Part shown: positions 12,439 through 29,405 of the stretch, piece by piece
How the letters are laid out: each line of letters opens with the position of its first letter
Numbering within the stretch: the first letter of the stretch is position 1
Assembly (NCBI GenBank): GCA_021286895.1
Contig: JAJTBN010000010.1
Span: 1-32,620 of the forward strand
Source of the DNA: Bacteroidota bacterium
Lineage (GTDB): Bacteria; Bacteroidota; Ignavibacteria; Tepidaquicellales; Tepidaquicellaceae
Reading direction: 5' to 3'
DNA length: 32,620 nt
Program-made: the position numbers and the translations under genes
Notes under the pieces: model-generated
Database searches by the model: none
Seen by the model: the letters and a program-made list of their open reading frames with translations, nothing else
Told to the model about the DNA's origin: nothing

Positions 12439-12951
12439 TTATTCGCCTTTCGCGGGAGGATTAAAGACCCTCGCTTTCAGTTCGTTATCGATTATGAATA
12501 GTCCGCCCACGTTATCGCCGATGAGTTTAAGTTTATTCACGAGTTTTGTTACAGTCGCTTCCTCTTCAACCTGTTCGTCAACGTACCATTTCAGAAAACT
12601 TGCCGTCGCGTGGTCGTTTTCCTTTATGGCAAGGTCGAGCACGTTGTTTATTGACGCTGTTACAAACTGCTCGTGTTCAAGTGTTTTCACGAACACATCG
12701 AGCGGGGATTTGAAATCCGCGGGAGGGGTGTCTATTTTCGCGAGAACGACATTGCCGCCTCTTTCGAGAAGGAAATTATAAAACTTCATCGCGTGAAAAG
12801 TTTCCTCCTGATACTGTACGTGGAAAAAATTCGCGAAACCGTCGAGGTCGAGCGAAGTGCAGTAAGCCGACATTCCGAGATAAAAATACGCGGAATAGAA
12901 TTCTTTGTTAATCTGTGAATTTATCGCATCTTCAAGTTTCTTCGAAATCAT
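12439..12951 (-). CDS. ftnA: Bacterial non-heme ferritin
   Basis: Ferritin oxidises and stores iron in a 24-subunit shell. The 170-residue protein carries all the ferroxidase residues at the same numbers as E. coli FtnA: E17, E50, H53, E94 and Q127. The helices are recognisable (NKEFYSAYFYLGMSAYC, FHVQYQEETFHAMKFYNFL, TLEHEQFVTASINNVLDLA, WYVDEQVEEEATVTKLV). The start at 12951 has a good Shine-Dalgarno site (AGGAG, about 6 bases before ATG), unlike most genes here. It is a single gene; I saw no Fur box I would trust. Confidence 0.96.
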   Translation of the reverse strand: MISKKLEDAINSQINKEFYSAYFYLGMSAYCTSLDLDGFANFFHVQYQEETFHAMKFYNFLLERGGNVVLAKIDTPPADFKSPLDVFVKTLEHEQFVTASINNVLDLAIKENDHATASFLKWYVDEQVEEEATVTKLVNKLKLIGDNVGGLFIIDNELKARVFNPPAKGE

Positions 12952-21144: not shown

Positions 21145-21783
21145 ATTCCGGACATAAAATTAAAAAATATTTCGGTAAGCATAGGCGAGCCTAAACGCGT
21201 TCTGTTCAGAATAAAGAATCTTGTAATCAAGACCGGTGAACGCGTGCTTATCAAGGGACCGAGCGGTATCGGCAAGACCACGCTGCTTCATCTGATAGCG
21301 GGGCTGTTTCTTCCCGACGAGGGCGAAGTGATTATCGGCGGCAAGGCTCTCGGTAAACTCTCTGACAATGAAAGAAGCGAATTGCGAAGAAGTTCCGTCG
21401 GAATAATTTTCCAGAAACTGAATCTCATAGAGCATCTGACTGTGCTCGAAAACGCGGAACTGCAGGCGCGAGGCGGCAAGGACCTTACCGGCAAGAGCAT
21501 GAACGCGCTCGAGAAAGTCGGCATGTCGGCGTTGTCGGGACAGTTGTCGGCAAGCCTTAGTCTGGGCGAACAGCAGCGCGTCGCGGTAGCGAGAGTTCTA
21601 AGTTTTTCGCCTGATATCGTTCTGGCAGACGAGCCGACATCGAGCCTCGATGAAAACAACTCAAACATCATCATGGATTCTCTTATAAACCTCCCTGAAG
21701 AAACGACGCTTATAACAGTCAGCCATGACCACAGGATAGAAAAAAGATTCTCGAGAATAATTAATTTCAGCGAACTTTCATGA
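21145..21783 (+). CDS. ABC transporter ATP-binding protein (LolD/MacB type)
   Basis: This is the ATPase of an ABC transporter of the lipoprotein/peptide exporter type. It has Walker A GPSGIGKTT, the Q-loop in FQKLNLIEHLTVLEN, signature LSLGEQQRVAVARVL, Walker B DIVLADEPTS and the H-loop in TVSHDH. The reading frame is open back to a stop at 21100-21102. No ATG, GTG or TTG lies in frame upstream of GTG 21244, which would remove the first beta-strands and start just before Walker A. The residues before it (IKLKNISVSIGEPKRVLF, and so on) clearly belong to the protein. I place the start at ATT 21145 as a best guess, giving about 212 residues. The gene overlaps the permease by 4 bp. Confidence 0.8.
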   Translation: MPDIKLKNISVSIGEPKRVLFRIKNLVIKTGERVLIKGPSGIGKTTLLHLIAGLFLPDEGEVIIGGKALGKLSDNERSELRRSSVGIIFQKLNLIEHLTVLENAELQARGGKDLTGKSMNALEKVGMSALSGQLSASLSLGEQQRVAVARVLSFSPDIVLADEPTSSLDENNSNIIMDSLINLPEETTLITVSHDHRIEKRFSRIINFSELS

Positions 21784-23012
21784 CACCTCTGCGGCTTGCA
21801 ATATTGAACCTTACGAGACGGAAACTTACGACTTTCTTCGCTGTGCTTTCCATTTCCATTTCCGTCGCGAGCAGCGGACTGCTTCTGCGCTCTTACATAC
21901 TTTCAAACTCCAGATTAGCAACTCTCGGCAAAGGGTGCGACGCGGTTGTGGGAGCGAAAAATTCGGGAATAGAAATTTTGCTCGGCAGTCTTAACGGGGA
22001 GGGCGACTTTCCGGATTTCGTTCCTTACGCGCTGTTCGAATCGCTGAGAAAAGAACAGCACGGAGAGGGCGTTTACGTATCCTCGGGAATTAAATCCGTT
22101 ATACCTTTCCTGTATTTCGGGAAGTTTAAGAATTACCGTGTAATTGGCACGGATGAAAGTTTCTTTAAAAGACCGCAGCCCGCGCCTGACCTGGATTTCG
22201 CGCAGGGCACCTGGGCGGCGAATCCCGACGAGGTCGTTATAGGAAGTTACATTGCAGATAAAGAAAATGTACGAATCGGAGATTATATTACTGTATCGCC
22301 GTGGCTCGGTAAAAGCGAAGAGCGGAAGTTTCCCGAATTTAAACTTAAGGTTACGGGCATACTCGACAGAACAAAAACCGTTTGGGATTATTCTCTGTTC
22401 TCGAACGTAAAACAGGCGCAGGATATTTACAGGCAGAACCTCGATTCGGCAAAAATATCAATCTGGGGATATAACGTCCTGAATTATTTTCTTATCTATA
22501 CGGATTTCGGAAGCAGAAAGCCTCTCACAGACCTCATAAACAAGCGTACCGTCGCGCAGGTAATATACGTCAACGAAGAAATCTCGAAACTCGAAGGGCT
22601 GCTTTCATCCGGAAAAAATCTCGGTCTTTTCATAACGCTTATGATAATCCTTCTCGGCGGGCTTGTCGTATCGGTGCTAATGATAACCCGTTTCGACGCG
22701 ATGAAGATACAACTGGCTGTGCTCCGCGCAATCGGCTATAAGAAAGGTGAGATTGCAAAATGGCTCTTGTGGGAGGGAATACTCCTCGGCGTTACTTCGT
22801 GCCTTGCTGGCGCGCTGTTCGACATGATGCTCTTCCCCGCTTTAAAAGGCGCAATAGGCATGGGACTGCCGGAAACCGTATTCGCGTCAAGCACAATCTT
22901 TCAGAGCATACCTATCTGGATAATAACAATCGCCGCGACATGCATCGCCGCTTATATACCGTTTGTCATTTTCAACACGCTCAACGTACATGACTCGTTA
23001 AGAGGATTATAA
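21780..23012 (+). CDS. ABC transporter permease (FtsX/MacB-like)
   Basis: This membrane component has 410 residues. One N-terminal membrane helix (about 13-33) is followed by a large extracytoplasmic domain (about 40-275) of the MacB periplasmic-core type. Three helices of an FtsX domain come next (LFITLMIILLGGLVVSVLMI, WEGILLGVTSCLAGALFDMML, IPIWIITIAATCIAAYIPFVIF), with the conserved LAVLRAIGYKKGEI between the first two. The start ATGA overlaps the ATPase stop, so the two are translationally coupled. The substrate is unknown; such pairs often handle lipoproteins, peptides or signals. A terminator follows. Confidence 0.88.
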   Translation: MTPLRLAILNLTRRKLTTFFAVLSISISVASSGLLLRSYILSNSRLATLGKGCDAVVGAKNSGIEILLGSLNGEGDFPDFVPYALFESLRKEQHGEGVYVSSGIKSVIPFLYFGKFKNYRVIGTDESFFKRPQPAPDLDFAQGTWAANPDEVVIGSYIADKENVRIGDYITVSPWLGKSEERKFPEFKLKVTGILDRTKTVWDYSLFSNVKQAQDIYRQNLDSAKISIWGYNVLNYFLIYTDFGSRKPLTDLINKRTVAQVIYVNEEISKLEGLLSSGKNLGLFITLMIILLGGLVVSVLMITRFDAMKIQLAVLRAIGYKKGEIAKWLLWEGILLGVTSCLAGALFDMMLFPALKGAIGMGLPETVFASSTIFQSIPIWIITIAATCIAAYIPFVIFNTLNVHDSLRGL

Positions 23013-23024
23013 AATTTCAGGAAT

Positions 23025-23212
23025 AAAAAAAGCGCCGGAATAAATCCCGGCGCTTTTAATTAAGTAAAGGGTAATTTGGGGACTCTTTATAAATTATATA
23101 TAGAAATAATTTATTGTCATTTTAAAAGAACTTTCAGAAAAATTTTAAAGAACCTTGTTGCGAAATGTCATCTTGCCTGTTTATCGATACCCTTACCTCT
23201 CAATTGCCACCA
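23025..23212 (-). ncRNA. Predicted orphan sigma-54-dependent RNA, about 188 nt
   Basis: A transcript from the sigma-54 promoter would start near 23212 and end at the minus-strand T-run of the terminator (about 23025). It contains no credible ORF; the only ATG frames give 8 codons each. It has signs of structure: a long-range stem pairs 23188-23198 (RNA 5' side, AGGTAAGGGTA) with 23062-23073 (TACCCTTTACTT), one bulge and one G-U pair, placed right before the terminator. An inner hairpin is ATAAATTAT/ATAATTTAT (23089-23114). The terminator closes the 3' end. I recognise no known RNA family. Confidence 0.6.
23028..23057. terminator. Strong bidirectional intrinsic terminator
   Basis: AAAAGCGCCGG and CCGGCGCTTTT pair perfectly around an 8-base loop. 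On the minus strand the stem is followed by a run of seven Ts (23025-23031 read in reverse). On the plus strand the tail is TTTTAATT. It ends the ABC permease transcript and, better still, the predicted minus-strand RNA. Confidence 0.93.
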
Positions 23213-23223
23213 CAAATAATGTA

Positions 23224-23237
23224 GCAATTAGCGTGCC
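23224..23237 (-). promoter_or_regulatory. Near-consensus sigma-54 (-24/-12) promoter
   Basis: The minus strand reads CGGCACGCTAATTGCTA. The GG is at 23237-23236, then exactly ten bases, then GC at 23225-23224. The consensus is TGGCAC-N5-TTGCW; the match is CGGCACG and TTGCT, one mismatch in the flanking T. Expected start is near 23212. Two enhancer-like sites lie upstream at 23346-23377. Confidence 0.72.
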
Positions 23238-23345
23238 GAGCCTCAAGAATTTTGTGTTTAATAAAATACTTTCTTAAAATGTTGAAAAAGCAGCAAAATA
23301 TGAGATACAAATGTCATTACAGTGTTTTTTGAATGTATCTTTTTT

Positions 23346-23377
23346 TCTCAATATGAGACGGTTTTCTCAATATGAGA
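23346..23377. promoter_or_regulatory. Twin palindromic enhancer-like sites
   Basis: TCTCAATATGAGA occurs at 23346-23358 and again, identical, at 23365-23377, 19 bp apart. Each is a dyad with arms TCTCA and TGAGA and a 3-base centre. The identity extends to a 16-base word TTTTCTCAATATGAGA. A half site ATATGAGA lies at 23299-23306. They sit about 110-140 bp upstream of the sigma-54 -24 box, the usual place for enhancer-binding protein dimers. Confidence 0.7.
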
Positions 23378-23614
23378 TTCTAAAACACAAAAAAATAGTA
23401 ATGGGATAACAGTTATATAGTGTTGATACTACAAAAATCTTTAATATATTTATTCGGAAGAGCGCAGAAACTTACTTGAACATTCGTGGGGGTTTTTCAA
23501 TAATGAAAGAAAAATCTTATTAATTTTTATCGAAATACTTTTTTTGTTATATGGAATTTCTGAAAGACTTATAGTCAAAAAGAATAAAAATAGATAGTTG
23601 GCGTTTTACAATGG

Positions 23615-23655
23615 TTCCCGCTTTTAAAAGCGGTCCGCTTCGCGGGCCCGCGGGA
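23615..23655. repeat. Compound GC-rich hairpin
   Basis: TTCCCGC at the left pairs with GCGGGAA at the right. Two inner stem-loops are CCGCTTTTAAAAGCGG and CCCGCTTCGCGGG-like. It has the same style as the hairpins at 6594-6660 (GCCCGCTTCGCGGGC). Confidence 0.65.
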
Positions 23656-23793
23656 ATGAAAAACTCAGACAAAATCGTTTTCCGGAAGTTTCAGTTTTGT
23701 GTTTTTTAATGACGGCAGACGAGTTACTCAGAACGCCTAACAGACTTTAATTTTTTTTAAATATTGAGTAAATATAGAAATAATAACAAAATT

Positions 23794-24768
23794 ATGACAA
23801 CCAGACGGGGTTTTCTAAGAAGCACGGTTTTCGCGGCGGGCGCTCTGCCGTTTATAAACAGATTAAGGCTGCCGGGTTTCAGAAGCGGCTCTGTTACGAA
23901 ACCTCTTGTACTTTCAACGTGGAATTTCGGCATGCCGGCAAACAAAGAGGCTTGGAAAATTCTCGATGCAGGGGGAAAGGCGCTTGACGCTGTAGAAGCG
24001 GGAGTAAAAATTCCCGAAGGCGACCCGAAGGTAACGTCCGTCGGTTACGGCGGGCTTCCCGACAGGGACGGACACGTTACTCTTGACGCGTGCATTATGG
24101 ACGAAGATTTCAACTGCGGGTCGGTAGCGTTTCTCGAAGGAATAATGCATCCAATTTCCGTGGCAAGGCTCGTAATGGAAAAGACCCCGCATATAATGCT
24201 TGCGGGCGACGGCGCGCTTCAGTTCGCGCTTCAGAACGGCTTTAAAAAAGAAAATCTCCTCACGCCGGAAGCAGAGAAAAAATGGAAAGAGTGGACTGAG
24301 AAAAACAATTACATACCGTATGAAAAGACGAACCACGATACAATAGGAATGATAGCGATTGACAAAGCGGGCAATCTTTCGGGAGCGGTTACCACAAGCG
24401 GCTTAAAATATAAGTATCACGGCAGAGTCGGGGATTCACCGATAATAGGCGCCGCGCTTTACGTTAACAACGACGCGGGCGCCGCTACAGCGACGGGAGT
24501 AGGCGAAGAGGTTATAAGAATCTGCGGCGCGCATACGATAGTCGAACTGATGGCTAACGGCTACAGCCCCGCGGACGCGTGCAAGGCCGCGGTTGAAAGA
24601 ATTATCAAAATTAAAAAAGATAACATTAAAGACATACAGGTGGGGTTCCTCGCCCTGAATAAGTACGGGGAATACGGAGCATACGCCATACAGAACGATT
24701 TCGAATACGCCGTATACTCGGAAACAGAAAACAATATTTTAAAAAAATCAGATTACAGTTTCAGATAA
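23794..24768 (+). CDS. Tat-exported N4-(beta-N-acetylglucosaminyl)-L-asparaginase-like Ntn-hydrolase
   Basis: This is a glycosylasparaginase/isoaspartyl peptidase-family enzyme, which cleaves N-acetylglucosaminyl-asparagine or beta-aspartyl bonds after self-cleavage. The ATG at 23794 gives 324 residues and begins MTTRRGFLRSTVFAAGALPF, a Tat signal (RRGFLR). A TTG at 23764 would add ten residues. The autocleavage site is HDTIGMIAID, with the new N-terminal nucleophile Thr183. Downstream substrate-site features are GRVGDSPIIGAALYVNNDAGAATATGVGEE. Length is normal. Its stop is only 1 bp before xdhA, so it leads a four-gene operon with xdhABC. The preproenzyme is expected in the periplasm, whereas XDH proteins are usually cytosolic, so why they are linked is unclear. 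Confidence 0.9.
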   Translation: MTTRRGFLRSTVFAAGALPFINRLRLPGFRSGSVTKPLVLSTWNFGMPANKEAWKILDAGGKALDAVEAGVKIPEGDPKVTSVGYGGLPDRDGHVTLDACIMDEDFNCGSVAFLEGIMHPISVARLVMEKTPHIMLAGDGALQFALQNGFKKENLLTPEAEKKWKEWTEKNNYIPYEKTNHDTIGMIAIDKAGNLSGAVTTSGLKYKYHGRVGDSPIIGAALYVNNDAGAATATGVGEEVIRICGAHTIVELMANGYSPADACKAAVERIIKIKKDNIKDIQVGFLALNKYGEYGAYAIQNDFEYAVYSETENNILKKSDYSFR

Positions 24769-24769
24769 A

Positions 24770-26197
24770 ATGAACGTGAACTTAAAATTCATATGTAACA
24801 ACGAATACGTGGAAACGGATATCAACCCGTCGGTGACGGTGCTCGATTTTCTTCGTATGCACAAGCGGCTGACGGGAACGAAAGAGGGCTGCAGGGAAGG
24901 CGACTGCGGCGCCTGCTCTGTCCTTGTCGGCGAAATGGCGGGCAATTTTGTTCAGTACAAATCGGTCAATTCATGCCTTCTGCCCGTTTCGGAAATTAAC
25001 GGAAAGCATCTCGTATCGGTAGAAGGGCTTAACGTAAACGGGCTTACGCCTTTTCAGGAAGCCCTTGTCAAAGAAAGCGGCACGCAGTGCGGCTTCTGCA
25101 CCCCGGGATTTGTCGTATCATATACGGCGTTTCTTCTCACGACCGAATCGTACGATTCCGAAACCGCGAAGGTTTATCTTACGGGAAACCTTTGCCGGTG
25201 CACCGGGCATTACAGGATAATATCCTCTGCGGAGAAAGTACTCGCTCTTTTTAAAGAAAGAACGGTTACGAATTTCACCGAGCGGATTGACCTGCTTATA
25301 AGCCTCGGCCTCCTTCCCGAATATTTCCGCGATATTCCCTCCCGTCTCGCCGCGATAAAGCGCGAGCACAGGGCGGCGGAAAACCCGCAGGATACTGTCT
25401 TTGTTTCGGGCGGCACAGATTTATTCGTACAGCAGGGACACGAACTTCTCGATAAGAACGTCGTCTTTCTCTCGGGCATTCTTAAAGGCGAAAAAATATG
25501 GATTGAAGGAACAGACCTTTTCCTTAACGCTTCGGCGACTGTCAGCGACCTGGAGAACTCTTCCATTATCAGAAAAATATTTCCCGAATTCAAAAACATC
25601 GCTTCGCTTTTCGGCTCGATGCAGATTCGAAACCGCGCCACGCTTGGGGGAAACATAAACAACGCATCTCCGATAGGCGACATGTCGGTTTTTCTCCTAT
25701 CGCTCAACGCGAAAGTCTTTCTTTCAAACGGCAAGACGACCAGAAGCGTTTTTCTGAAGGATTATTTCAAAGATTATAAAGTTCTCGACAGGAACAGGGA
25801 TGAGTATATGCAGAAAATAGGAATACGCCTGCCGTCGGGAAATTATAAATTCAGTTACGAAAAAGTAAGCAAGCGCACTTATCTCGATATAGCAAGCGTG
25901 AACACCTCGATTCTTCTCGGATACAACGGCAGAGCCATAACCTACGCATATTTATCCGCCGGCGGCGTCGCGCCGGTGCCTTTATATCTGAAAAACTCTT
26001 CCGAATTTCTCAAAGAAAAAGAAGTGACCGCCGCATTAATGAACGGCCTCGCCGAAACAGCCGCGGCGGAAATAAAGCCGATAAGCGACGTGAGAGGTTC
26101 GGCGGAATACAAGACACTATTGCTGAAACAATTAATAAAAGCGCATTTTCTCAGGATGTTCCCCGAAATATTCAAACCGGAGGACGCGCTATGTTAA
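24770..26197 (+). CDS. xdhA: Xanthine dehydrogenase small subunit (2Fe-2S and FAD domains)
   Basis: This subunit passes electrons from the molybdenum site through two 2Fe-2S clusters to FAD. It has 475 residues. The N-terminal ferredoxin domain has C41, C46, C49 and C69, and the second cluster domain C107, C110, C142 and C144 (CGFC...CRC). The FAD domain has VSGGTDLFVQQG (first FAD loop) and NRATLGGNINNASPIGD (second). The C-terminal part is the usual CO-dehydrogenase flavoprotein C-domain. Length equals R. capsulatus XdhA-type subunits. It overlaps the start of xdhB by 7 bp; a GGAGG site for xdhB lies inside its end. Confidence 0.96.
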   Translation: MNVNLKFICNNEYVETDINPSVTVLDFLRMHKRLTGTKEGCREGDCGACSVLVGEMAGNFVQYKSVNSCLLPVSEINGKHLVSVEGLNVNGLTPFQEALVKESGTQCGFCTPGFVVSYTAFLLTTESYDSETAKVYLTGNLCRCTGHYRIISSAEKVLALFKERTVTNFTERIDLLISLGLLPEYFRDIPSRLAAIKREHRAAENPQDTVFVSGGTDLFVQQGHELLDKNVVFLSGILKGEKIWIEGTDLFLNASATVSDLENSSIIRKIFPEFKNIASLFGSMQIRNRATLGGNINNASPIGDMSVFLLSLNAKVFLSNGKTTRSVFLKDYFKDYKVLDRNRDEYMQKIGIRLPSGNYKFSYEKVSKRTYLDIASVNTSILLGYNGRAITYAYLSAGGVAPVPLYLKNSSEFLKEKEVTAALMNGLAETAAAEIKPISDVRGSAEYKTLLLKQLIKAHFLRMFPEIFKPEDALC

Positions 26198-28452
26198 ACT
26201 ACGACTCAATACGACACGTAAGAGGCGAATCGATATTTCTCGACGATTACGGCGCGCCGCAGGGCACGCTGTTCGGAGCGGTTTTTTACTCGCCCTCGGC
26301 GCACGGGAAAATCAAATCGCTGGATATTTCCGGGGCGGTAAAACATCCCGGCGTCCGGGCAGTGCTTACCGCGAATGACATCCCCGGCGAAAACCAGATA
26401 GGCGGAATAATTCAGGACGAAAAACTCCTTGCCGATACGGAAGTAGAATTCATCGGCGAACCCGTCGCTTTTGTTGTAGCCGAAAGTTTTCTCACTGCAA
26501 GAAAAGCGGCGAAGAAAATTAAAATAGAAATTGAAAAACTCGAAGTTATAACAAACCCGAAGACCGCCTGCGAAAAAGGCAGGCTGATTATGGACCCGCG
26601 CACATATTCGTGCGGGAATCCGGAAGAAGCGTGGAGCAAATGCGGCCTCGTTTTCGAGGGCACTGTTGAATCGGGAGGGCAGGAACATCTTTATCTTGAA
26701 ACCCAGTCTTCTCTCGCGATACCTATTGAAGGCGGAAGCATAAAGATAATCTCGTCGACGCAGAATCCGACCGCTATTCAGAGAACAGCGGCAAAAGTTC
26801 TCGGCATGACGGACAATCATTTTGAATGCGAAGCCATGCGGCTTGGCGGCGGTTTCGGAGGCAAAGAGGATCAGGCGACGGCATGGGCTGTACTCGCGGC
26901 GCTCGGATGCAAAGTAACAGGCAAACCCGTCAAAGTCGTACTAAGCAGGCAGGAAGACATGAGGCTTACGGGCAAGCGTCATCCTTACATCTCCGATTAT
27001 AAAATCGGATTCTCAAAAGAAGGCAAGATTCTCGCTTATGAAGTTTCTTTCTACCAGAACGCGGGAGCGGCTGCAGACCTTTCCCCTGCGATACTCGACA
27101 GGACTCTCGCGCACTGTACGGGAAGTTATTTCATACCGAACGTAAAAGCGACAGGTTATTCGTGCAAGACAAACCTGCCCCCGAACACCGCGTTCAGGGG
27201 ATTCGGCGGACCGCAGGGAATGTTCGTGCTCGAAGCGGCTATTCACAAAGCAGCCGAAAAACTTAACGTGCTTCCTTACGAATTGCAGGAAAAAAACCTT
27301 ATCAGGGAAGGAGAGGAATTTCCTTACGGCCAGAAAACCGAATTCTGCAAAGCGGAAGCATGCTGGAACGAAGCGAAGTCAAAATTTAATTTCGAATCCG
27401 TTAAAATCGAAGTCGATAAATTCAACGCGAACAGCAAACTTTTCAAGAAGGGGTTCGCTGTAATGCCTATCTGTTTCGGCATTTCTTTTACCAACACGAT
27501 GCTGAATCAGGCAAGTTCTCTCGTGCATGTTTACGCCGACGGAAGCGTCAGTGTCAGTACGGGCGCGGTGGAGATGGGACAGGGCGTCAACATGAAAATA
27601 CGGCAGGTGGCGGCGGCGATATTCGGAATCAGCACGGACAGAATAAGAAGCGAATTCACAAACACGACAAGAAACGCCAATACATCCGCGACCGCGGCAA
27701 GCAGCGGCGCCGACATGAACGGCAACGCCACAAGAATCGCCTGCGAAGAAATCGCGGAACGACTTAAGAAATTCTACATCAGCGCGAATAAACTTGACGA
27801 AAGAACTGTAATAACTTTTGAAAACGGTTTCGTGTACACAAACGGAAAAAAAACGGATACGTCTTGGGAACAGATTGTAATAAGCGCGTATAAGAGCAGG
27901 ATAGACCTGTCCTCGCACGGTTTTTACGCCACGCCTAAAATTCATTTCGACCCTGCCGCGAATAAAGGCAGGCCTTTCGCTTACCATGTTTACGGAACCG
28001 CGGTTATTACAGCGACGCTCGACTGCATCAGAGGAACGTATGAATTCGACAGCGTGAATATCGTTCACGATTTCGGGAAGAGCATTAACCCGGTAATTGA
28101 CAGGAGCCAGGCGGAAGGCGCGCTAATGCAGGGTATCGGCTGGCTTACTCTGGAAGAAATTATATTCAATGAGCAGGGGCGTCTCACCACCGACACTCTT
28201 TCGGCTTACAAAGTGCCCGATATCGGTTTCACTCCGAAGAAAATAGAAATTGAGTTTCTCGAAAACAAAGACGTCAACGCTGGAGTATTCAACTCAAAGG
28301 CAATCGGCGAACCGCCTTTCATGTACGGAATAGCGGCTTACTTTGCCCTCGTAAACGCCGTCAAAGCCGCGAACGGAAACCGCGAAGTAAGCATAAACGC
28401 TCCGATGACGCCTGAAAAAGCGTTCATGAACATATACGGAGAAAAGAAATGA
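26191..28452 (+). CDS. xdhB: Xanthine dehydrogenase large subunit (molybdopterin-binding)
   Basis: The molybdenum subunit hydroxylates purines, typically hypoxanthine to xanthine to urate. It has 753 residues. Molybdopterin motifs are GGGFGGKE, AFRGFGGPQG, EMGQGVNMKIRQVAAA and QAEGALMQGIGW. The residues that define purine binding in XDH are kept: E226 (bovine E802), R304 (R880), both 78 residues apart as in the bovine enzyme, and the base-catalyst E707 in AIGEPPF (E1261). This supports a purine substrate over an aldehyde. A good GGAGG lies 7 bases before the ATG. The stop overlaps xdhC by 4 bp. Confidence 0.95.
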   Translation: MLNYDSIRHVRGESIFLDDYGAPQGTLFGAVFYSPSAHGKIKSLDISGAVKHPGVRAVLTANDIPGENQIGGIIQDEKLLADTEVEFIGEPVAFVVAESFLTARKAAKKIKIEIEKLEVITNPKTACEKGRLIMDPRTYSCGNPEEAWSKCGLVFEGTVESGGQEHLYLETQSSLAIPIEGGSIKIISSTQNPTAIQRTAAKVLGMTDNHFECEAMRLGGGFGGKEDQATAWAVLAALGCKVTGKPVKVVLSRQEDMRLTGKRHPYISDYKIGFSKEGKILAYEVSFYQNAGAAADLSPAILDRTLAHCTGSYFIPNVKATGYSCKTNLPPNTAFRGFGGPQGMFVLEAAIHKAAEKLNVLPYELQEKNLIREGEEFPYGQKTEFCKAEACWNEAKSKFNFESVKIEVDKFNANSKLFKKGFAVMPICFGISFTNTMLNQASSLVHVYADGSVSVSTGAVEMGQGVNMKIRQVAAAIFGISTDRIRSEFTNTTRNANTSATAASSGADMNGNATRIACEEIAERLKKFYISANKLDERTVITFENGFVYTNGKKTDTSWEQIVISAYKSRIDLSSHGFYATPKIHFDPAANKGRPFAYHVYGTAVITATLDCIRGTYEFDSVNIVHDFGKSINPVIDRSQAEGALMQGIGWLTLEEIIFNEQGRLTTDTLSAYKVPDIGFTPKKIEIEFLENKDVNAGVFNSKAIGEPPFMYGIAAYFALVNAVKAANGNREVSINAPMTPEKAFMNIYGEKK

Positions 28453-29405
28453 CGGAACTCGAACTCTGGAAATACGCGAAGAGCGTGATTGATAATGGCA
28501 GCCCGCTTATGATGACCGTGGTTCTTGACGCGCGTGAGTCCACGCCCGGCAAGCAGGGCTTCAAGATGGTAACAGGACTGAACGGCGAAATAAACGGCAG
28601 TGTGGGCGGCGGGAAGATGGAATACGACGTGATACAGGAATCGGTCGAATCGCTGAAAGCAGGCGCGGGAAAAAATTATTTCAAATACTACAATCATTAC
28701 GGCGACAAGCCGGGCAGCACGGGCATGATATGCAGCGGCTCGCAAATAATAGGCTACCTGCGCCTCGGAAAAGACGACGCTGAAACTGTCGCAAAAGTCG
28801 TTAACGCGATAGAAAAAAATACAGGCGGCATTTTTTCCGCGGACGCGAACGGAATAGGGTTCTCGGAATTAAACGGCAGGACGAAGAAATTCGGGTTTGA
28901 CGAAGAGGAGTGGGCTTATTCCGAAGTTATAGGCATTAAAGAGCGTGTATATATTTTCGGAGGCGGGCACGTAGGTCTTTCGGTATCAGAAATAATGTCG
29001 TTCCTCGATTTTCACGTCATAGTAATAGAAAAACGAAAAGATATTTTCACGCTTATAAACAATTGCCATGCGAATGAAATCATCAACGAGGATTTTGTGG
29101 ATTACTCGGATAAAATCATCGAGGACGATTTCAGTTATGTCATAATCGTTACCCCGAGCCATTTTCACGACGAGGATGTCCTGAGGGCGGTTATCGGCAA
29201 GAAGGTCCGGTACATAGGAATGATGGGAAGCAAGGCGAAGGTAAAATCTATTTTCAGGAATATGAAGAACGACGGCATAACTGAGGAGATGCTTGACGGC
29301 ATACATTCTCCTATCGGCCTGCCAATCGGCAGCAAGACTCCCGACGAAATTGCGGTGAGCATAGCCGCCGAAATAATAAAAATAAAAAACTCTGTGTTTT
29401 TTTAA
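28449..29405 (+). CDS. xdhC: XdhC molybdenum-cofactor chaperone
   Basis: XdhC binds molybdenum cofactor and helps its sulfuration and insertion into XdhB. The 318-residue protein has the XdhC/CoxI N-terminal domain (MTVVLDARESTPGKQGFKMV, GSVGGGKMEYDV, MICSGSQIIGYL) and a C-terminal Rossmann domain (YIFGGGHVGLSVSEIMSFLDFHVIVIEKR, then SPIGLPIGSKTPDEIAVSIAAEI). It overlaps xdhB by 4 bp and GGAG precedes the ATG, so it closes the operon. No urate or allantoin catabolic gene follows. Confidence 0.94.
   Translation: MTELELWKYAKSVIDNGSPLMMTVVLDARESTPGKQGFKMVTGLNGEINGSVGGGKMEYDVIQESVESLKAGAGKNYFKYYNHYGDKPGSTGMICSGSQIIGYLRLGKDDAETVAKVVNAIEKNTGGIFSADANGIGFSELNGRTKKFGFDEEEWAYSEVIGIKERVYIFGGGHVGLSVSEIMSFLDFHVIVIEKRKDIFTLINNCHANEIINEDFVDYSDKIIEDDFSYVIIVTPSHFHDEDVLRAVIGKKVRYIGMMGSKAKVKSIFRNMKNDGITEEMLDGIHSPIGLPIGSKTPDEIAVSIAAEIIKIKNSVFF

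Follow-up and report, generated by a model that had tools for sequence, protein, structure and literature searches.

A stretch without long open reading frames (ORFs) in 32,620 nt of Ignavibacteriota DNA (the window) probably encodes a trans-acting small RNA (sRNA) of approximately 190 nt. Its sigma-54 promoter would be driven by an enhancer-binding protein (EBP), its core would act on Shine-Dalgarno (SD) regions, and it would belong to a larger regulon of the same EBP. In the mechanism that we propose, the EBP partner of a hybrid kinase would bind two TCTCA-N3-TGAGA dyads and activate the sigma-54 (RpoN) promoter through DNA looping, giving rise to a minus-strand sRNA that extends from position 23212 to about 23021. 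The sRNA would act in trans without Hfq, its core pairing with the SD regions of some secreted-protein mRNAs and probably blocking their translation. A second element (RNA2), located 3' of the gene encoding a T9SS peptidase, may be transcribed and serve as sponge or target. Since the same EBP would directly activate a surface regulon, made up of secreted/T9SS proteins together with small membrane peptides, the sRNA would supply the repressing side of a switch at the cell surface. Sequence comparison supports the promoter, the enhancer, the link to the EBP, the regulon, the conservation of the RNA, and the complementarity of its core; from these we infer transcription, EBP binding, pairing in vivo, and the sign of regulation.

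Genomic Context

The host genome (G000) is a 3.07-Mb draft assembly of 330 contigs. Comparisons within the genus used five draft genomes, all Ignavibacteriota MAGs (G000 and four relatives, G001-G004); wider sets comprised 44 genomes of the order and, for a covariance model, 247 genomes of the phylum. The ORF list of the window holds no ORF of at least 80 amino acids (aa) in positions 23013-23763, where the elements of the unit listed in Table 1 are found. A molybdenum hydroxylase cluster (FAD/2Fe-2S subunit, MoCoBD subunit, and XdhC; window positions 24770-29405) adjoins the asparaginase-family gene.

Table 1. Features of the predicted sRNA unit and of its neighbors in the window
Feature	Position	Strand	Remarks
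MacB/FtsX-type permease	21780..23012	+	Convergent neighbor, outside the unit
Predicted small RNA, approximately 190 nt, without conserved ORF	23021..23212	-	Conservation, fold, ORF check
Intrinsic terminator hairpin, 13 bp	23028..23057	-	U tract continues to 23021
Invariant 24-nt core CCCCAAATTACCCTTTACTTAATT, likely base-pairing segment	23058..23081	-	Identical in five genomes
5' segment GUAAGGGUA, able to close the RNA by pairing with the core	23186..23197	-	MFE structure
Predicted transcription start	23212..23212	-	Inferred from sigma-54 geometry, 12 nt past the -12 C
Sigma-54 -24/-12 element CGGCACGCTAATTGCT	23223..23238	-	Top sigma-54 score of all window positions, both strands
Enhancer dyad 1, minus-strand reading TCTCATATTGAGA	23346..23358	-	Paired, kept in G001-G004
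Enhancer dyad 2, identical to dyad 1	23365..23377	-	19 bp from dyad 1
Asparaginase-family protein	23764..24768	+	Divergent neighbor, outside the unit

An asparaginase-family gene lies beside the unit not only in the window but also in G001 and G002; the permease accompanies it in the window and G001 only. A T9SS-type gene lies upstream of the unit in G003, and the genes downstream in G002 and G004 differ from those in the window. Because the neighboring genes vary while the dyads, the sigma-54 site, and the RNA are kept, the promoter and RNA appear to behave as an independent transcription unit, and both a promoter and an intrinsic terminator, as expected of such a unit, can be recognized in the sequence.

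Promoter and Enhancer Dyads

An earlier, sequence-only reading of this DNA had described two exact dyads 19 bp apart and, on the minus strand, a GG-N10-GC element near the sigma-54 consensus. Both descriptions hold. An exact TCTCAATATGAGA stands at each dyad position, and these are the sole TCTCA-N3-TGAGA matches in the window (two found versus 0.03 expected, with no third). The -24/-12 element has the best sigma-54 score in the window and is one letter off TGGCACG-N4-TTGCW, with GG at 23237-23236 and GC at 23225-23224; 107 bp separate the inner edge of the dyad pair from the -24 box. The same reading had counted an additional half-site. A TGAGA is indeed present at 23301-23305, but it is not conserved in the relatives, and for this reason we rejected a third half-site as a functional part. 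It had also termed the promoter an orphan: no protein gene lies in front of it, as stated, but it faces a conserved RNA. The RNA-like region ending in a terminator, which the reading had likewise noted, corresponds to the predicted transcript of about 190 nt with its strong hairpin. With the exception of the third half-site, the interpretation as an EBP-driven sigma-54 promoter is thus largely supported at the sequence level.

Among the checks that had been proposed were the presence of rpoN and conservation in close relatives. The host genome encodes rpoN (PF04552, E 2.5e-52). The sigma-54 site and both dyads are common to all five genus genomes, kept in the four relatives while flanks and neighbors have diverged; the spacing within the pair is 19-20 bp in the relatives. 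GGCA-N5-AATTG is retained in the five genomes, and the GC of GG-N10-GC reads GA in three of the relatives. In a five-genome alignment (mean identity approximately 54%), invariant positions cluster at both dyads, at GGCA-N5-AATTG, and at the 24-nt core.

Dyad Pairs and Their Candidate Activator

The search of related genomes for dyad pairs with sigma-54 sites, also among the proposed checks, was positive. The pair set comprises 51 pairs in the loci examined, matching at 18 of 20 letters or better. All 51 have, no more than 170 bp away, a sigma-54 site with a score of 19 or higher; for AT-rich control windows the figure is 10.5%. Because orthologous loci are included, the pairs are not fully independent. 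The distances from pair to -24 box fall into groups separated by roughly one helical turn (49-53, 60-64, 72, 82, 96, and 106-109 bp), with a best-scoring period near 11 bp. Strict pairs occur in six of the 44 genomes of the order, whereas a reversed control pattern forms a pair in none of the 44.

It could be argued that the dyads and the GG-N10-GC element are chance matches without function. Single dyads do arise randomly (16 in the host genome versus 6 control matches, both strands counted), and those in loci L002 and L008, which lie inside ORFs, were taken as chance. The five-genome conservation, the link of every pair to a sigma-54 site, and the lack of control pairs in the 44 genomes already contradict this explanation on sequence grounds, and we regard it as exceedingly improbable.

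An EBP gene with the same dyads had been suggested as a further check, and such a gene was located through its own dyads on contig C104 of the host genome. Its product of 453 aa combines a receiver, a sigma-54 activation (AAA+), and a Fis-type HTH domain (Pfam), and the gene adjoins one encoding a hybrid kinase (REC-HisKA-HATPase). The EBP gene ends directly before a dyad pair and sigma-54 site, followed by a 38-codon ORF with a hydrophobic tail. Orthologs of the EBP are present in 12 of the 44 genomes (the window's own and eleven others at 66-95% identity, one of the 12 being a contig-end fragment), and all six strict-pair genomes are among these 12 (hypergeometric p = 1.3e-4). In nearly all genomes with an ortholog, dyads come after the EBP gene, although further off in G003 and G004; in some genomes they consist of one good and one weak dyad. 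The recognition helix of the orthologs, [IV]SKAT[ILV]YRKI (SKATIYRKI), tracks the dyads, whereas the best matches in genomes without pairs have another helix, e.g., GIDRKTLYKKI. At one locus (L126:4425-7001), genes for a receiver-only protein, a TPR protein, and an IgA-type peptidase M64 are conserved after the EBP gene. Given the linkage of gene and dyads and their co-occurrence, the EBP probably binds the dyads; the activator is likely, to judge from these genomic associations, to be this NtrC-type response regulator, whose gene neighbors that of a hybrid kinase.

Predicted Regulon

Most products of the genes downstream of dyad pairs are secreted proteins, and many of these carry a T9SS sorting domain; other genes encode a receiver-only protein with a TPR protein, and carbamate-kinase-like products. 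The pairs and their sigma-54 sites are also predicted to drive small single-helix membrane peptides of 32-39 aa (e.g., MKAIKQFTGADFSFMIGIILVVSLLVTGFIVK), which have no Pfam match. These are often found beside the EBP gene or in tandem; the loci are L031:21-137 on contig C104 of G000, L099, L101, L105, L115, L125-L127, and L130.

ORF-less transcripts are predicted behind dyad pairs as well: the RNA of the window, one on contig C184 of G000, one common to G003 and G004, and one in G019. On C184 (approximately 12500-12800; L006:1236-1530), a dyad-linked sigma-54 site faces roughly 150 nt of ORF-less sequence that includes a terminator and is a candidate second sRNA of the window's genome. The predicted RNA of G003 and G004 (L103 and L108) is a conserved ORF-less stretch of about 250 nt with an EBP/sigma-54 promoter, a CCTTTACCC/GGGTGAAAGG hairpin, and a terminator.

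A TCTCA-N3-TGAGA pair with a phased -24/-12 element offers a rule by which the regulon of an uncharacterized kinase/EBP system can be predicted in environmental genomes.

Structure and Conservation of the Predicted Small RNA

An RNA of 160-200 nt with the terminator and the 24-nt core is predicted in all five genus genomes; the window copy is 83% identical to that of G002 over positions 23020-23204. Compared with shuffled sequences, the fold of the window copy is only marginally better (z = -1.96), a point against the sRNA interpretation; three relatives score -6.2, -3.6, and -2.8. Pairing of GUAAGGGUA with the core is part of the MFE structure in the window copy, G002, and G003 but does not form in G001. 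The terminator stem is kept in the relatives while its sequence changes on both sides. Searches of Rfam placed the RNA in no known family, and a tRNA/tmRNA search found none. When the 247 phylum genomes were searched with a covariance model of core and terminator, only the window's own copy was strong, and the other matches (41 bits or less) look terminator-driven; the RNA therefore appears to be genus-specific. At about position 22438 of contig C166 in G002 (L029/L037), a core-like sequence in sense orientation forms an inverted repeat where a T9SS gene terminates, a hint that the sRNA may have been derived from a 3' UTR.

Other EBP promoters drive 32-39-aa peptides, and the G001 RNA has a hydrophobic 35-aa frame, so it might be supposed that the transcript encodes a small membrane peptide and that its RNA features are secondary. 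No ORF, however, is common to the five RNAs, the invariant block sits just upstream of the terminator, and a hairpin in G003/G004 stays paired through changes on both sides. We rejected the peptide explanation for lack of a shared ORF and consider it very improbable.

Complementary Element and Candidate Targets of the Core

Pattern searches of the genomes were used to seek targets of the core. A near-exact core complement, RNA2, was found at one orthologous place in four genus genomes: it lies 3' of a Peptidase_S15/T9SS gene, between the terminator of that gene and another one farther on. At the orthologous peptidase of the fifth genome, two copies are present, both degenerate. The complement is absent after the peptidase orthologs of G011, G026, and G028, genomes from which the sRNA core is absent too. 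Contiguous pairing of RNA2 with the core of its own genome extends over 18 nt in G000, 18 in G002, 17 in G003, and 20 in G004. In G001, RNA2 is degenerate, with 11 contiguous pairs, which we count against the sRNA interpretation. The RNA2-core duplex energy surpasses that of all shuffles in G002 and G004 and is unexceptional in G000, G001, and G003.

Outside the sRNA, the five genus genomes contain seven exact copies of the 13-mer AAGTAAAGGGTAA, including one inside an ORF; the 39 other genomes contain seven, and those inspected there lie in or overlap ORFs. In G001 and G003, two of the genus copies cover the SD of secreted-protein genes, as does a related site in G000. These ribosome-binding site (RBS) candidates are different genes in different genomes, and AAAGGGTAA-N-ATG is not enriched over the control genome-wide; these two points and the unexceptional duplex energies likewise count against the sRNA interpretation. 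The ftsZ RBS (GAAAGGGTAAA in five genomes) was also considered as a target but is likely to be an ordinary SD. From these searches, RNA2 is likely to be a sponge or target partner of the core, and repression at the RBS by core pairing is plausible.

That the RBS candidates are not common orthologs and show no overall enrichment, together with the convergence of the window RNA on the permease gene, would agree with a different account, in which the EBP-driven promoter is real but its transcript is a cis element or vestige, for example opposing the convergent permease, without targets in trans. Against it, the 24-nt core is invariant although the neighbors change in G002, G003, and G004, and its complement is found again in all five genomes at an orthologous position; we consider this account unlikely.

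The preferred interpretation, a trans-acting sRNA, admits a more specific form, which we put forward tentatively: a Qrr/QrrX-type circuit of sRNA and sponge that does not depend on Hfq and arose independently in the Ignavibacteriota. The EBP would raise some secreted surface proteins, the sRNA would repress others by covering their SD, and the antisense-core RNA would set the threshold. If true, this would be an independent case of the design combining sigma-54, sRNA, and sponge, which would suggest that this architecture is favored for lifestyle switches. Trans-acting sRNAs are poorly understood in those Bacteroidota/Ignavibacteriota relatives that have no recognizable Hfq, and the present phylum is unstudied in this respect. 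The locus provides an activator that can be named, together with its site and regulon, and an RNA whose pairing segment is invariant and for which there are candidate partners; all are conserved enough for tests.

Comparison with Known Systems

The predicted circuit resembles the LuxO-Qrr system in its NtrC-type response regulator and its tandem 5-N3-5 dyads, which precede a sigma-54 promoter by about 100 bp. The LuxO site is itself a 5-N3-5 dyad, TTGCA-N3-TGCAA (PMC3352281); the TCTCA-N3-TGAGA site described here shares the inner CA-N3-TG with it but differs in the outer bases. Further similarities are a terminator-ended sRNA with a conserved pairing core and helically phased loop lengths, those of the Vibrio qrr enhancers being spaced about 11 bp (PMC4740811). 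The putative RNA2 resembles QrrX, an RNA complementary to the Qrr core (PMC9732341). The regulon, in contrast, consists mainly of secreted proteins, and the phylum is another one. As for membership in the Qrr family itself, neither an Rfam match nor a LuxO-type site was found. Hfq (PF17209) was detected in none of six genomes; among control genomes, 5 of 14 matched, as expected. By these tests the RNA does not belong to the Qrr family.

The CbrB-CrcZ/CrcY system of Pseudomonas is similar in that a two-component EBP and sigma-54 drive regulatory RNAs. CrcZ is a protein-sequestering RNA with repeated CA motifs, whereas such motifs are not seen in the RNA described here. CbrB uses three non-palindromic subsites (PMC6296734). 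Our literature searches returned no account of an sRNA or sigma-54 regulon from the Ignavibacteriota. In a general survey, sigma-54 has been proposed as a controller of the bacterial exterior (PMC3162934), a theme with which the predicted secreted/surface regulon fits.
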